From Acidobacteriota bacterium (lineage in GTDB: Bacteria > Acidobacteriota > Vicinamibacteria > Vicinamibacterales > 2-12-FULL-66-21), in NCBI GenBank assembly GCA_016184105.1, contig JACPDI010000006.1:24897-88609 (forward strand): a stretch of 63,713 nt of DNA. Direction: 5' to 3'. Positions 6,776 through 58,103 of the stretch are shown in pieces (the first letter of the stretch is position 1; each line of letters begins with the position of its first letter). The notes below the pieces were generated by a model. The model saw nothing but the letters and a program-made list of their open reading frames with translations, searched no databases and was not told the DNA's origin. The position numbers were made by a program, and so were the translations under genes.

Positions 6776-6796
6776 CCTGAACCCTGAACCCTAAAC
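6776..6796. repeat. Degenerate heptamer tandem repeat (CCTGAAC unit)
   Basis: Three consecutive 7-base units, CCTGAAC, CCTGAAC and CCTAAAC, occupy the short gap between the deacetylase and leuS. It belongs to a set of six intergenic 7-base-period arrays in this window, each with its own unit sequence. Confidence 0.7.
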
Positions 6797-17405: not shown

Positions 17406-18467
17406 TCACAAACCGGCCGACCGTAAATCGACCCACGGCCTGGGAATGAACAGCCGCTCGAAGAGGCCGATCGCGTAGCGGTCGGTCATCCCGGCGAGAA
17501 AATCGCGCGCCGCGGCATCCAGGCCTTCGGTGGCCATGGTGCGCTGGTCGAGGAACTCTTCGGGGCGCTCACGGACTTTCTCCCACAATCCGCCGAGAAT
17601 CCCGGTCGCTTTCTTGAATTCCGCGGTGGCGATGCCGTTCTCGTAGACCGTTTCGAACAGGAAGCTCCGGAGCTGGAGGGTCGCGTCGAGGACCTCGTCG
17701 CTCATCCGAACTTCGGCCAGGTTTCCCTCGAGCGTCCGCAGCACGGCGTCGGTCACCATGGTGCCGATACGCTCGGAGGAGGTGCGTCCGAGTCGCTCGA
17801 CGGCGGCCTTCGGCAGATCTTCGCCGGTCATCAGTCCCGCGCGGACGGCGTCATCGATGTCGTGATTGACGTAGGCGATGATGTCCGCCACGCGCGCAAT
17901 CTGCCCTTCGATCGTGCTCGCGCGGTGTTCGGGCGGCGCGCCGACCGGCAGGCCGTGCTTCCCTTTCGAGTGCCGCGCGATGCCGTCACGGACTTCCCAG
18001 GTGAGGTTCAGGCCGTTGCCGTCGCGCTCCAGGACGTCGACGATGCGAAGGCTCTGCGCGTAGTGCTCGAAGCCGCCGGGCACGAGGGCGGCCAGCACGC
18101 GCTCGCCGGCATGACCGAACGGCGTGTGCCCGAGGTCGTGCCCGAGCGCGATCGCCTCGGTCAGCTCTTCGTGCAGGCGCAGCACCTTCGCGATGCTGCG
18201 GGCGATCTGCGAGACCTCGAGTGTGTGCGTGAGGCGCGTGCGATAGTGATCGCCTCGCGGCGCGAAGAACACCTGCGTCTTGTGTTTGAGCCGCCGGAAC
18301 GCCTTGCAATGGATGACCCGGTCGCGGTCGCGCTGGAACACGGGGCGGATCGGGTCCTGGGGCTCGTCGCGGAGCCGCCCCCGGCTGTCGGCGCTCTTGG
18401 CCGCCTGCGGGGCCAGGAACTCGCGCTCGCGCTGTTCGAGCTGCTCGCGGATAAGGGGGACAGTCAC
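17406..18467 (-). CDS. dgt: dNTP triphosphohydrolase, dGTPase-like HD protein
   Basis: A 353-aa HD-domain enzyme of the deoxyguanosinetriphosphate triphosphohydrolase-like family, expected to release tripolyphosphate from dNTPs. HD-site residues are visible in HCKAFRRLKHKTQVF, RLTHTLEVSQIAR and IALGHDLGHTPFGHAGE. RVADIIAYVNHDIDDAV and the C-terminal KKATGILGGLWEKV also match. The GTG at 18467 lies inside a 24-bp inverted repeat and overlaps the deoB TGA stop as GTGA, so the repeat itself provides the start. The open frame runs upstream through deoB but carries no homology there. Confidence 0.9.
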   Translation of the reverse strand: MTVPLIREQLEQREREFLAPQAAKSADSRGRLRDEPQDPIRPVFQRDRDRVIHCKAFRRLKHKTQVFFAPRGDHYRTRLTHTLEVSQIARSIAKVLRLHEELTEAIALGHDLGHTPFGHAGERVLAALVPGGFEHYAQSLRIVDVLERDGNGLNLTWEVRDGIARHSKGKHGLPVGAPPEHRASTIEGQIARVADIIAYVNHDIDDAVRAGLMTGEDLPKAAVERLGRTSSERIGTMVTDAVLRTLEGNLAEVRMSDEVLDATLQLRSFLFETVYENGIATAEFKKATGILGGLWEKVRERPEEFLDQRTMATEGLDAAARDFLAGMTDRYAIGLFERLFIPRPWVDLRSAGL

Positions 18468-18511
18468 ACTTCTTCCTCCGATCGCGGGGAAGAAGTGTGA
18501 CTGTCCCCCTT
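18453..18511. repeat. 24-bp perfect inverted repeat spanning deoB end and dgt start
   Basis: The arms at 18453-18476 and 18488-18511 are exact reverse complements (core GGGACAGTCACACTTCTT) around an 11-base loop. The left arm contains both the deoB stop and the dgt GTG. The same core recurs near 38374-38467 upstream of clpC, so it is a dispersed repeat rather than a local hairpin. Confidence 0.9.
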
Positions 18512-19684: not shown

Positions 19685-19743
19685 AAGGGGTCGGGAGCCT
19701 TTTTCGACGGGAATCGGTGGCCGAAAAAGGCTCCCGACCCCTT
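19685..19743. repeat. 22-bp perfect inverted repeat between miaA and deoB
   Basis: The arms 19685-19706 and 19722-19743 are exact reverse complements (core AAGGGGTCGGGAGCC) around a 15-base loop. It fills the entire gap and touches both genes: the right arm overlaps the miaA stop codon. The same core occurs at 49923-49979, marking a dispersed family. Confidence 0.9.
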
Positions 19744-21749: not shown

Positions 21750-21792
21750 GGGGTCAGATCCCGAAATATCACTTTTTTCGTGGCCTGACCCC
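21750..21792. repeat. Degenerate copy of the GGGGTCAGATC repeat family
   Basis: GGGGTCAG (21750-21757) and CTGACCCC (21785-21792) bracket an AT-rich centre with CACTTTTTTC. The same elements occur in the long palindrome at 57481-57583. It lies in the gap between menG and the TonB-like gene. Confidence 0.7.
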
Positions 21793-21800
21793 GCGTTCGT

Positions 21801-32551: not shown

Positions 32552-32611
32552 GAATTTGAGGATTTGAGGATTTGAGGATTTCGAATCCTCAAATGTCAAA
32601 TCCTCAAATTC
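32552..32611. repeat. AT-rich hairpin of GATTTGAG units upstream of fabZ-lpxA
   Basis: The left arm is three copies of a roughly 8-base unit (ATTTGAGG, 32554 onward). The right arm is the reverse complement (CCTCAAAT...CAAATCCTCAAATT). It is strikingly AT-rich against its surroundings and lies between ompH and the fabZ-lpxA start. Confidence 0.8.
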
Positions 32612-38373: not shown

Positions 38374-38467
38374 AGGGGACCGTCACACTTCTCCCCGGCC
38401 GGAAGTGGGACAGTCACACTTTCCAGTAGCCGCTCCTGGGGAAAGTGTGACTGTCCCACTTCCGGCC
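38374..38467. repeat. 28-bp perfect inverted repeat plus partial direct copy
   Basis: The arms 38397-38424 and 38440-38467 are exact reverse complements (core GTGGGACAGTCACACTTTCC) around a 15-base loop. A third partial copy (GGGACCGTCACACTTCTCC) precedes them at 38374-38393. The same core as the repeat at 18453-18511. It lies between the BON gene and clpC. Confidence 0.9.
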
Positions 38468-38475
38468 GTCCTCTT

Positions 38476-40701: not shown

Positions 40702-43329
40702 TCAGGGCCGCCGCCGGTCTTGATGCAGCGCGTCCCACATGGCGACCACGCGGGTGCGCAGCCGCTCGGTGTGCGCCGCGTAGGTGGCATCGGAGGCCGG
40801 TTCGAGCGGGGCGCCGAACTCGAGCCGCGCACGCGCCGGCGACCACGGCAGCAGCGATGACCAGCGCGGGCTCCGCCCGCGGGCCCAGATGTCCCAGGCC
40901 CCGTCGATCGCGACCGGCACGATCGGGACGCGTGCGTGGTGGGCCAGGATCGCGGCCCCCTTGCGAAAGGCCTTCACCGTTCCGTCGATCGAACGTTCGC
41001 CTTCCGGGAACAGAATCATCACCTTGCCGAGGCGCAGCCCGTACGCCCCGGCCTGCATCGCGCCCACGAGGTTCGCGTCGGCGTCGATCGGCACGACGTT
41101 CAACGTGCGCGCAAGCCAGCGCATGAACGGCGCCTCGAAGTACTCCGCGGCGCCGACGAAGAACATGTCTTTGAACGCGCGGAACGGCAGCGCGCCGACG
41201 AGCAGGAACGCATCGACGTAGCTCTGGTGGTTCGGGCTGATCACGTACGGCCCGCGCGCCGGCACGTGCTGCTGCCCGCGGACCCGCAGGCCGGCGGCCA
41301 CGTGAAAGAAGACCGACAGCAGCTTGACGGCGACAAACAGCAACGCCGCGCGCACGCGCTTCGGCTTCTGCAGCTCGCGGAGGAATTCGCCGTCAGCCGG
41401 CGGCTCCTGGAGCAGCCGCTCCCAAGGCTGCACGCGCCCGGCGGTATCCCATCCCTCGCGCAGGCGCGAGCGGCACGCCTCGACGAGATCCCCAACCGTG
41501 TGCAGCTGCTGCGCCACGTCGTCCGGGATCTGGATCTGCAGGGTGCCGGTGAGATGCACGAACAGCTCGACCCGTTCCATCGAGTCGAGCCCCAGGTCCA
41601 GCTCGAGGTGCGCGTCGCGGCGCAGGCCGGCGCCGGCGGGCACCGCTTCCCGCATGACGGAGAGAATCGTGGCGACCTGCGGATCCGCGCTCCACTCGTC
41701 GGGCACCCGCGCGGCGGGACTCGTCATCTCCGCGCGTTCCGCCTCTGCCGCGCGCTGTTCGAGCTGCTTCTGGATCTCGAAGCGTTTCAGCTTCCTCGTC
41801 GTCGTGCGCGGAAGCGGATCGAGCGTGACGTCGTAGCCCAGGATCCGCTTGTGCGCCGGGAGCTGCACGGAGAGCCCTTCAAGCTCGAAGCGCAGGAGCT
41901 CGCGGATGTTCACCGCGCCGCGCGCCCGCAGCGCCGCCGCATCCGGCCGCACGAGCGCGTGGAGCCGCTCCGAGGTCGGCTCGCCCGGCCGCGAGAGCCC
42001 GACGACGCACAGCTCCTCGATGAACGGCGAGCGCTCGTAGTGCGCCTCGATCTCTTCCGGGTAGATGTTCTTGCCAGACCCGAGGACGATGACCTCCTTG
42101 CTGCGGCCCGTGACGAACAGGCGGCCGTGGCCGTCCAGGCGTCCGAGATCGCCGGTGTGCAGCCAGCCGCCGGCGAGCGTCGCCGCGTTCTGTTCGGGCC
42201 GGTTGAAGTACCCCTGCATCACGATCGGCCCGCGGACGAGCACTTCGCCGTCGGCGCCGTCGGACGGCGCGATCCGGATTTCGTTTCCCGGCAGCACGCG
42301 GCCGACCGACCCGAGATTCGGGTCGCCATCGTCGGAAATCGTGGCCGCGCCCGAGCACTCGGTGAGGCCGTAGGCCTGGCGGATGGAGAACCCGAGCGCG
42401 AACAACGATTCGTTGATGAGCGGATCGAACCGGGCGCCGCCGGTCACCAGCAGGCGCAGGTCGGGCCCCAGCGACCGGTGGATTTTTCGAAAGAGCGCAC
42501 GGCCGGGATTGAGGCGCGTGGCGCGTCGAACGCGGAGATTGAACGCCGAGAGCATCCGGACGACGGCGCGCGCGGCAAGCGGCAGAGCGCGAATCTCGGA
42601 TTCGATCCGCTGGTGCAACAGGTAGAAGAACTGCGGGACGCAGACCAACGCCGTGATGCCGCGTTCCCGGAGCGCGCGCGTGAGCTCGGTGGTGTTGAGC
42701 GTCTCCAGGTACACCACCCGCGCGCCCACGGAGAACGGCAACAGCAGGTTGGCCATCTGCGCGAGCGCGTGAAACAGCGGCAGGACGCTGAGGATCGCGT
42801 CGCGCTCGTCCACGTGCACGAGATGAAACGCGGCGGTCCGCTCGGCCACGATGTTGTCGTGCGTCATCACGACCCCTTTGGGATCGGCGGTCGTGCCGGA
42901 CGTATAGAGGATCACGGCCGGGTCGCTGTCCCCGACGGGGGCCGGGGCCCCAGGCCCGTCGCAGGCGGCGAAATCACGGTGAAGGTTCGCGACCGCCACG
43001 ATCGCCGGGGCGATCGCGGCCACCGCGGCCCGGGCGGTCTCGGCAAAGCGGTCGCTGGTGAACACCGCCGCCGCGCCGCAGTCCTTCAGGAGCTTCGCGA
43101 CCTGCTCCACGCTGTAGGTGGTGTCGAGCGGCACCGCGACCGCGCCGGCCCGGAGGACGCCCAGGTACGCCCCACACCACTCGCCGTCGTTCTCCGCAAG
43201 AATGGCGACACGCGATCCGATCGCCACGCGACGGGCGTCGAGCCATGCCGCGGCGCGACCGGCGATCGCGGCCAGCTCGCGATACGTCAGGCGGTCAACG
43301 CGGTCGCGGCGCTGCAGCTCGGTGGCCAC
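40702..43329 (-). CDS. Acyl-CoA/ACP synthetase - carrier domain - 1-acyl-glycerophosphate acyltransferase fusion
   Basis: An 875-aa three-part enzyme. About 1-500 is an AMP-binding acyl-activating domain (ILYTSGTTADPKGVVMTHDN; GYFNRPEQNAATLAGGWLHTG; GSGKNIYPEEIEAHYE). About 545-620 is an acyl-carrier-like domain with the phosphopantetheine Ser in LDLGLDSMERVELFV. About 655-870 is a PlsC-type acyltransferase (NHQSYVDAF, VPIDADA, LFPEGERSIDG). It resembles Aas-type enzymes with a built-in carrier, probably activating and transferring fatty acids to phospholipid. Start uncertain: GTG 43329 is given, but PDNFYDLFARAADRFGDR upstream looks family-like and would need ATT at 43386. Lies downstream of lolD. 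Confidence 0.88.
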   Translation of the reverse strand: MATELQRRDRVDRLTYRELAAIAGRAAAWLDARRVAIGSRVAILAENDGEWCGAYLGVLRAGAVAVPLDTTYSVEQVAKLLKDCGAAAVFTSDRFAETARAAVAAIAPAIVAVANLHRDFAACDGPGAPAPVGDSDPAVILYTSGTTADPKGVVMTHDNIVAERTAAFHLVHVDERDAILSVLPLFHALAQMANLLLPFSVGARVVYLETLNTTELTRALRERGITALVCVPQFFYLLHQRIESEIRALPLAARAVVRMLSAFNLRVRRATRLNPGRALFRKIHRSLGPDLRLLVTGGARFDPLINESLFALGFSIRQAYGLTECSGAATISDDGDPNLGSVGRVLPGNEIRIAPSDGADGEVLVRGPIVMQGYFNRPEQNAATLAGGWLHTGDLGRLDGHGRLFVTGRSKEVIVLGSGKNIYPEEIEAHYERSPFIEELCVVGLSRPGEPTSERLHALVRPDAAALRARGAVNIRELLRFELEGLSVQLPAHKRILGYDVTLDPLPRTTTRKLKRFEIQKQLEQRAAEAERAEMTSPAARVPDEWSADPQVATILSVMREAVPAGAGLRRDAHLELDLGLDSMERVELFVHLTGTLQIQIPDDVAQQLHTVGDLVEACRSRLREGWDTAGRVQPWERLLQEPPADGEFLRELQKPKRVRAALLFVAVKLLSVFFHVAAGLRVRGQQHVPARGPYVISPNHQSYVDAFLLVGALPFRAFKDMFFVGAAEYFEAPFMRWLARTLNVVPIDADANLVGAMQAGAYGLRLGKVMILFPEGERSIDGTVKAFRKGAAILAHHARVPIVPVAIDGAWDIWARGRSPRWSSLLPWSPARARLEFGAPLEPASDATYAAHTERLRTRVVAMWDALHQDRRRP

Positions 43330-49472: not shown

Positions 49473-49916
49473 CTACATCACCCGAGCGCCGGCCCCCCGG
49501 CGCTCCGCGGCGATTGCCGCGGCGACGACCAACGCCGCGCCGCCGCCGAGCGGGAGCGCCGTCAGAAACCGTGTCATGTTGCCCACCGGCCATCCGGCAA
49601 TCCATTCGGCCGCCAGCGTCAGCACCGTCGGGATCGCGCAGAGCGCCAGCAGCGCGCGCGCCACCGCCGGCGTGAGGTGCGGCGCCTTGATGCGCCACGA
49701 TCCGCCGGCAACGAGACCGGCGAGCCCGCCCACGTACAAACCGAGGCAGCGCGCGCAGACGGCGACCGGCCCGGCCGCGACTTGAAAGGTTCTTTCCGGA
49801 ATCTGGTGACAGACGAGCGCGGCGGCGGCGTAGATGAACGACGCGTCGAGCAGCGGCGCCGCGATGACGGCGAGCGTCCAGACCGCGGCGGATGCGAGGA
49901 GCAGCGGCAGGAGCAT
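49473..49916 (-). CDS. DUF2085 family membrane protein
   Basis: A 147-aa membrane protein. LVCHQIPERTF and VCARCLGLYVG, with conserved Cys and His residues, are the DUF2085 signature and suggest a metal or thiol site at the membrane surface. Helices lie at about residues 3-22, 55-72, 84-105 and 115-135. It is the first gene of the four-gene membrane-protein run leading to VanZ; an inverted repeat (49923-49979) lies just upstream. Function unknown. Confidence 0.85.
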   Translation of the reverse strand: MLLPLLLASAAVWTLAVIAAPLLDASFIYAAAALVCHQIPERTFQVAAGPVAVCARCLGLYVGGLAGLVAGGSWRIKAPHLTPAVARALLALCAIPTVLTLAAEWIAGWPVGNMTRFLTALPLGGGAALVVAAAIAAERRGAGARVM

Positions 49917-49922
49917 GATGAG

Positions 49923-49979
49923 AAGGGGTCGGGGCCTGTTTCCTGATGCGGGAGAGAGGAAAAAGGCTCCCGACCCCTT
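49923..49979. repeat. Inverted repeat, second copy of the AAGGGGTCGGGAGCC family
   Basis: The left arm AAGGGGTCGGGGCCTGTTTCC (49923-49942) and right arm ending GGCTCCCGACCCCTT (49958-49979) are near-complementary. The core matches the perfect repeat at 19685-19743. It lies between the VWFA protein and the DUF2085 gene. Confidence 0.85.
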
Positions 49980-49987
49980 TTTATCAC

Positions 49988-56998: not shown

Positions 56999-57481
56999 AT
57001 GTTGCGCTTCCGCCTGTGGTCGCTGTCGGCCCTGTTCGTCATGCTTGGTGCCTCGCCCGCCTTCGCCGATGCGACGGCATTCATCGGCGCGACGCCGACC
57101 CCCTCGAGCCGCGTGTCCAAAGGACTGGCGATCGGGATCACGGTCCTCGTGGTCGGGTTCGAGTTCGAATACAGCGACACGGTCGAGGACCTCGAGGCCG
57201 CCGCGCCGTCGCTGCGCAGCGGCATGGGCAACGTGATCGTGCAGACGCCGATCGCGGTATCCGGACTGCAGTTCTACGCCACCGCCGGCGGTGGCATCTA
57301 CCGCGAACGCCTCGCTGACGTGCAGGAAACGAACCTCGGGATGAACATCGGGGGCGGAGTGAAGGTCTCGCTGCTCGGGCCGCTGAAGCTGCGGCTGGAT
57401 TACCGGCTGTTCACGCTGCGGGGCGCGCCGCTGCACAGCAAGCCGCAGCGGGTGTATGCGGGGCTGAACCTGGCGTTTTAG
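56999..57481 (+). CDS. Small outer-membrane beta-barrel protein
   Basis: A 160-aa exported protein. Signal peptide residues 1-23 (LFVMLGASPAFA-D) are followed by alternating strands ending in Phe (VYAGLNLAF), the outer-membrane protein terminal signature. FIGATPTPSSRVSKGLAIGI, FEFEYSD and GAMNIGGGVKV-like strands resemble OmpA/OmpW-type small barrels. Divergent from the acyl-CoA dehydrogenase with only about 27 bp between, where a TAGAAT hexamer sits close to the ATG. Its TAG stop is completed by the first base of a long palindrome. Confidence 0.8.
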   Translation: MLRFRLWSLSALFVMLGASPAFADATAFIGATPTPSSRVSKGLAIGITVLVVGFEFEYSDTVEDLEAAAPSLRSGMGNVIVQTPIAVSGLQFYATAGGGIYRERLADVQETNLGMNIGGGVKVSLLGPLKLRLDYRLFTLRGAPLHSKPQRVYAGLNLAF

Positions 57482-57583
57482 GGGTCAGATCTCGAAAACA
57501 CACTTTTTTCTAGGTCTGACCCTTTTCCCCAAAAGGGTCAGACCTAGAAAAAAGTGTGTTTTCGGTTTTCGAGATCTGACCCC
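57481..57583. repeat. Long palindrome (about 46-bp arms) between convergent genes
   Basis: The left arm 57481-57526 starts GGGGTCAGATCTCG. The right arm 57531-57583 is its reverse complement except for a 7-base tandem duplication of GGTTTTC at about 57564-57570. The loop is CCCC. The arms contain CACTTTTTTC runs, so both strands end in T-tracts and it could terminate both flanking genes. A degenerate relative lies at 21750-21792. Confidence 0.92.
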
Positions 57584-57590
57584 TAAGCGT

Positions 57591-58103
57591 CTACTGGACG
57601 GGCTTCGAAAAATCCGCCACGAGCGTCAGGTTGGCAATGCTCTGGCCGGCAAACGCGTCCTTGATCTTCTCGTAGATCGCCTGCGCCTCGCTCGGCAGCG
57701 TCTCGGCAATGATCTTCGTCGCCGTGTAGTCCGCTCCGGCGACCGCCGGGTCGATGAAGTAGATGTACATCACGTTGCCGCCGCTGGCCTCGGACATCTT
57801 GTACACCTTCCAGCCGGCGGCCTGCTGCTTGCGCACCGGGTCCGCGCTCTTCTGCAGCGACTCGTGCAACTTGGCCAGGAACGCCTCGAAGTCAGCGGTC
57901 TTTTCGGGCTTGATGATGTTGAACAGCAGGCCGGCCGGCCCGTTGAATTTGCGGCCCGGGTCCGCTGCGGGCTGTTGCTGCGCGGGCTGCTGCGCCTGTG
58001 TCTGGGGCTGAGCCGGCGGCTGCTGCTGTTCCGAAGTCTGGGCGAACGCCGCGGCCGGAACCGCGAGCACGAGTGCGAGCGTGAAACGCGCGAGAAACCG
58101 CAT
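57591..58103 (-). CDS. Secreted protein of unknown function with Gln/Pro-rich linker
   Basis: A 170-aa exported protein. Signal peptide residues 1-21 (LALVLAVPAAAFA-Q) precede a Gln/Pro/Ala-rich linker (23-50). A folded domain (about 55-170) follows: GLLFNIIKPEKTADFEAFLA, AAGWKVYKMSEASGGNVMYI, FIDPAVAGADYTATKIIAET, ending VADFSKPVQ. The pattern resembles Dabb/ABM-like small ferredoxin-fold domains but no family is certain. ATG 58103 has AGGAGG 7 bases upstream. It stands alone between a palindrome and hemW. Confidence 0.75.
   Translation of the reverse strand: MRFLARFTLALVLAVPAAAFAQTSEQQQPPAQPQTQAQQPAQQQPAADPGRKFNGPAGLLFNIIKPEKTADFEAFLAKLHESLQKSADPVRKQQAAGWKVYKMSEASGGNVMYIYFIDPAVAGADYTATKIIAETLPSEAQAIYEKIKDAFAGQSIANLTLVADFSKPVQ

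Follow-up and report, generated by a model that had tools for sequence, protein, structure and literature searches.

A long palindrome between convergent genes of an Acidobacteriota bacterium resembles REPINs and matches the ends of a Y1 transposase gene

Results

The palindrome at 57478-57586 of the window (the whole stretch of 63,713 nucleotides analysed here, on contig C6) is, judged from sequence, very probably a non-autonomous, REPIN-like element of the TIRYT/TIRtron kind, and its dispersal was most likely driven by a Y1 (HuH) transposase whose gene lies on contig C17 of this genome. This reading draws on the dispersal of the family, the flanking of the cognate gene by its units, the domain and motifs of the transposase, and the covariation of the arms, all of which were observed here; its mobility part comes from a single draft genome of one strain. 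Since the palindrome is a copy of a scattered family that matches the ends of a transposase gene, it looks like a further case of a known kind of bacterial repeat, not like a dedicated terminator.

The features of the window are as follows.
57478..57586, no strand: whole palindrome, REPIN-like inverted doublet, outer GGGG/CCCC at 57481-57583
57481..57524 (C6:82377-82420), + strand: unit 1, 44 nt, match to model R1 at E 3.5e-10
57533..57583 (C6:82429-82479), - strand: unit 2, inverted, 44 nt plus the 7-nt tandem duplication, match to model R1 at E 1.1e-6
57558..57571, + strand: 7-nt tandem duplication, GTTTTCG x2, arm 2 only
21750..21793 (C6:46646-46689), + strand: single family unit between codirectional genes, unit-model match
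56999..57481, + strand: upstream ORF, 160 aa, weak OMP beta-barrel similarity (E 0.028, below cut-off)
57591..58103, - strand: convergent ORF, 170 aa, no family above cut-off

Structure and position of the palindrome

As the initial annotation had it, the palindrome is the longest inverted repeat in the window (arms at most 200 nt apart), carries a 7-base duplication in one arm, and starts at the last base of a stop codon. The left arm measures 49 nt and the right arm 56 nt; the palindromic arms, which had been put at about 46 bp, are slightly longer than that (44-nt units plus TTA/TAA). Two perfect inverted repeats, one of 34 nt (57493-57526/57531-57564, 100% identity) and one of 22 nt (57478-57499/57565-57586, 100% identity), overlap to form a single hairpin. 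The excess length of the right arm is one 7-nt tandem duplication, the sole difference between the arms; the perfect tandem is GTTTTCG x2 at 57558-57571, and the GGTTTTC given earlier is one possible phase of the insertion. The predicted RNA fold reaches -81.9 kcal/mol, while 200 dinucleotide shuffles averaged -25.7 (sd 3.3; z -17) and none of them was as stable. The palindrome is built of two inverted 44-nt units, GGGGTCAGATC...CTGACCC, each of which is an imperfect hairpin on its own, with GGGGTCAG pairing with CTGACCCC. The ORF at 56999-57481 (+) has TAG as its stop codon, on whose G the element starts, and the convergent ORF at 57591-58103 (-) stops 7 nt past the element.

The duplication had also been linked to period-7 behaviour of other arrays. 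TRF at a low threshold gave period-7 rows at 6776, 12112, 23374, and 62725 with unrelated units, and the duplication was found in this copy alone among the seven doublets compared, so that link was dropped.

A dispersed family of units in the genome

The lead towards a repeat family in the initial annotation was right, and the palindrome belongs to a dispersed one. At E 0.1, a covariance model built from 18 units returned 39 rows, or 26 places once the 13 rows that were opposite-strand reads of the same hairpins are set aside. The genome thus holds at least 26 units, a lower bound since scoring covered 150 of the 1071 first-look candidates; the window element itself, used as query, had 27 matches. 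Seven close inverted pairs were found, on C35, C49, C22, C6 (the window palindrome), C34, C31 (40729/40773), and C17 (53500/53614). The remaining units comprise two that flank the transposase gene, two at contig ends (C39 and C53), and eight singles.

When 18 units of the genome were aligned, the left terminus proved invariant, and the TTTTC stretch almost so. Of the 13 pairs in the consensus single-unit hairpin, none (0/13) shows two-sided changes. The units start with GGGGTCAG preceded by variable bases, and the GT[AG]G head is absent from them; therefore, we do not call the palindrome a classical REP. As in a REPIN, inverted REP-like units form one hairpin and the copies are mostly extragenic, 13 of the 15 classified sites lying between genes with several overlapping gene ends. 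A literature search with the literal motif returned, among the matches listed, no title on bacterial repeats.

Gene context and the terminator reading

Genes around the family sites were called with an ad hoc codon-usage gene caller, leaving out the two transposase flanks and the two contig-end units; the context of site C31:41344 was taken from its neighbour's gene list. Eleven of the 15 sites lie between codirectional genes, two between convergent genes, and two inside ORFs. The 66 gene junctions of the window comprise 60 codirectional, three divergent, and three convergent ones, so convergent sites are few in family and window alike.

The initial annotation had considered the palindrome a bidirectional terminator with T-runs in both directions, that is, a structure selected to insulate the two convergent genes. 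A very stable hairpin does stand precisely between two stop codons, and a pattern scan gives four terminator-like sites against 1.1 expected. However, no U-tract such as an intrinsic terminator carries follows the stem on either strand; the T-runs are present, but they lie inside the stem, and the T-run tails reported by the scanner are stem sequence of the palindrome. In addition, the family resides mostly between codirectional genes or within ORFs, and the palindrome has the sequence of a dispersed repeat. We therefore regard a terminator as quite an improbable identity for the palindrome. An incidental effect on the 3' ends or termination of the flanking transcripts is possible, and would be secondary if any.

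One unit (2262-2305 of locus L020; C31:10179-10222) lies in frame within a rarA-like AAA ATPase gene, at a point where the alignment shows E. coli RarA to be shorter. A second unit, just ahead of the start codon of this gene, makes up the 3' end of the gene upstream.

Symmetry and covariation of the arms

Over 43 positions in the seven doublets of this family (family a), agreement is 96% between the arms of one doublet and 81% (maximum 93%) between arms taken from different doublets, the 7-nt duplication being skipped in the second arm of the window palindrome. None of 1854 derangements reached the observed within-doublet agreement. In an alignment of six doublets, from which the degenerate C17 pair was left out, 16 of the 43 pairs of the long hairpin show two-sided changes and 98.4% of the cells pair; 0 of 500 shuffles reached this, and slid versions gave at most four such pairs. 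Family-a doublets thus carry compensatory changes between their arms, as already published for REPINs in the portion of Bertels and Rainey available to us (PMC3116915). Beyond 15 nt outside the elements, arm symmetry is at chance level.

These doublets also bear on a false inverted duplication made by the assembler. Palindromes are hard to assemble and units do stand at the ends of C39 and C53, but six further inverted doublets have distinct arms and loops at separate loci and the second arm of the window palindrome has its private 7-nt duplication, which makes such an artefact very improbable.

Swapped-arm tests also gave excess within-doublet symmetry, at some of the positions, for family b (18), family c (20), and genome G038 (15). 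Genome G017 speaks against a general rule: 20 single hairpins there showed no arm covariation (0.64 vs 0.75 swapped). A separate local inverted duplication for each doublet would also yield arm covariation, and the arm data cannot separate selection on pairing from inverted duplication at each site or from copying between arms.

The cognate Y1 transposase on C17

The transposase ORF on C17 encodes 287 aa (1505-2368 of locus L006, - strand) and lies between inverted units of the family (C17:40493-40536 and 41510-41553), as the cognate gene of a REPIN does; its last codons are inside a flanking unit. GGGGTCAG stands at both ends of the gene and fits the GGGGWSAS of TIRYT/TIRtron repeats. A whole-genome Pfam search gave two Y1 genes without this one, which a direct scan and a protein search recover. 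The protein matches Pfam Y1_Tnp with 38.8 bits (cut-off 23; E 1.2e-9) and NCBIfam REP_Tyr_transpos at E 3.1e-19, although with 69 bits, under the 80-bit cut-off. In an alignment of 39 proteins, its HuH motif (HYH 60-62) and Tyr119 align with those of its relatives, and it thus has the Y1_Tnp domain with HuH and Tyr of classical REP/RAYT systems. At the C-terminus, HTH_38 (E 7e-6) and HTH_23 (E 8e-5) score just under the Pfam cut-offs; this HTH-like region is conserved, and helical in homologues.

A PDB sequence search with the C17 transposase gave nothing at E 0.1. The predicted structure of its homologue L223 (14-sequence alignment; pLDDT 86) has as its best match in a fold search (E 1.3e-7) PDB entry 4ER8, a REP-associated tyrosine transposase in complex with a REP hairpin. 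The match supports the predicted fold of the transposase family, through the homologue rather than the C17 protein itself.

The Y1 nature of the cognate gene also tells against a MITE of a DDE-type transposon, which would have terminal inverted repeats and a target duplication: the element is short and non-coding with inverted ends, but no target-site duplication of at least 3 nt was found in six family-a copies and none of at least 5 nt in 79 copies of five sets, and we consider this origin highly unlikely.

Relatives in other genomes

Among 40 genomes including the present one, the unit model matched eight and an L006-like protein was found in 17. In 162 genomes of the order, 11 were positive for the unit model (1e-4) and 21 for the protein (1e-30). 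The protein occurred in six of the 11 model-positive genomes and 15 of the 151 model-negative ones (Fisher p 7e-4, the genomes not being phylogenetically independent). Five of the 11 model-positive genomes have no L006-like match at E 1e-30, although two of these are listed as 100% complete.

Exact inverted arms of at least 14 nt surround 17 of 29 transposase genes of relatives, compared to 3/174 among swapped flanks. The excess was weaker for the loci from other phyla (9/24 vs 8/144 swapped), perhaps because swapped flanks share the motif. The C17 gene itself scored as a miss in this test because one unit overlaps its 3' end; the whole locus shows a 20-nt inverted arm. In the clade of the C17 protein the arms are often GGGGTCAG[A/G]TC (e.g., L102, L223, L228, L236, and L241). 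In the other supported clade most arms are GGGGTCGG or GGGGACA, and two rows have GGGTCAGACCC or its inverse; rows lacking such arms are present in both clades. Loci L152-L161 of genome G038 hold nested palindromes; in several of them each arm has two GGGGTCAG-like boxes, and the variable parts match.

Other Y1-linked repeat families in the genome

The genome holds 46 exact GGGGTCGGGAGC cores (one for the reversed-pattern control), 34 of which form 17 close inverted pairs, and two flank the second Y1 gene. For GTGTGACTGTC the number of exact cores is 221 (control 0), and copies surround the third Y1 gene. In the window, REPIN-like inverted repeats of the AAGTGTGACTGTC family (GTGTGACTGTC cores) were seen at 18453-18511 and 38376-38468, and the Y1 transposase gene on C18 carries a repeat of this family on both sides. 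The GGGGTCGGGAGCC family (46 exact genomic cores) has REPIN-like repeats in the window at 19685-19743 and 49916-49986; the Y1 gene on C21 is flanked by repeats of this family, and its ORF ends inside one. At 32552-32611, an 8-nt tandem repeat of ATTTGAGG is followed by its inverted repeat.

Discussion

In the mechanism we propose, two inverted 44-nt units with GGGGTCAG termini make up one long hairpin, and the likeliest driver of dispersal is the single-copy cognate Y1 (HuH) tyrosine transposase on C17, of the TIRYT/RAYT type ('TIRtron'). The transposase would recognise the folded single strand, its tyrosine may cut at the foot of the hairpin, and it would then move or copy the doublet. At the window site, the element occupies the space between the convergent genes and contributes the final base of one stop codon.

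The accessible text of Di Nocera et al. (2013, PMC3733652) describes TIRYT/TIRtron as a Y1 gene flanked by terminal inverted repeats with GGGGWSAS, the repeats being dispersed as moderate families, partly as dimers. The present family is likewise dispersed and partly dimeric with a Y1 gene between fitting repeats; it differs in consisting largely of inverted doublets with co-varying arms, and is likened to TIRYT by its repeats rather than by protein alignment. From what is available of Bertels and Rainey (2011, PMC3116915) and Nunvar et al. (2010, PMC2817692), it shares with REPIN/RAYT systems the long-hairpin inverted doublets, a cognate gene with two inverted flanking units, and compensatory arm changes. 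Unlike them, it has no GT[AG]G head and numbers tens rather than hundreds of copies. The C17 protein also resembles TnpAY1 subclass 2.1 in its Y1 core, and perhaps in a C-terminal helix-turn-helix, for which its HTH_23/HTH_38 matches fall below the Pfam cut-offs. The accessible part of the 2018 survey (PMC6006769) reports no REP-like sequences near subclass 2.1 genes, whereas a dispersed cognate family exists here.

As to how arms stay alike, one tentative idea, which we hold rather less likely than its negation, is that the arms of a doublet are kept identical by copying, through either hairpin-templated template switching or transposase-driven conversion. A REPIN would then evolve as a palindrome by concerted change, not by selection on pairs of mutations, and three REPIN families of different sequence with three Y1 transposases in one genome would show the process side by side.

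The element is ordinary in kind and unusually complete, and a previously unexplained palindrome is now assigned to a complete element-transposase system. It is a clear added case of a transposase resembling subclass 2.1/TIRYT with its own dispersed hairpin doublets, absent from the 2018 survey as far as its accessible part goes (PMC6006769). The strong identity of arms within doublets gives a simple way to test how REPINs keep their symmetry.
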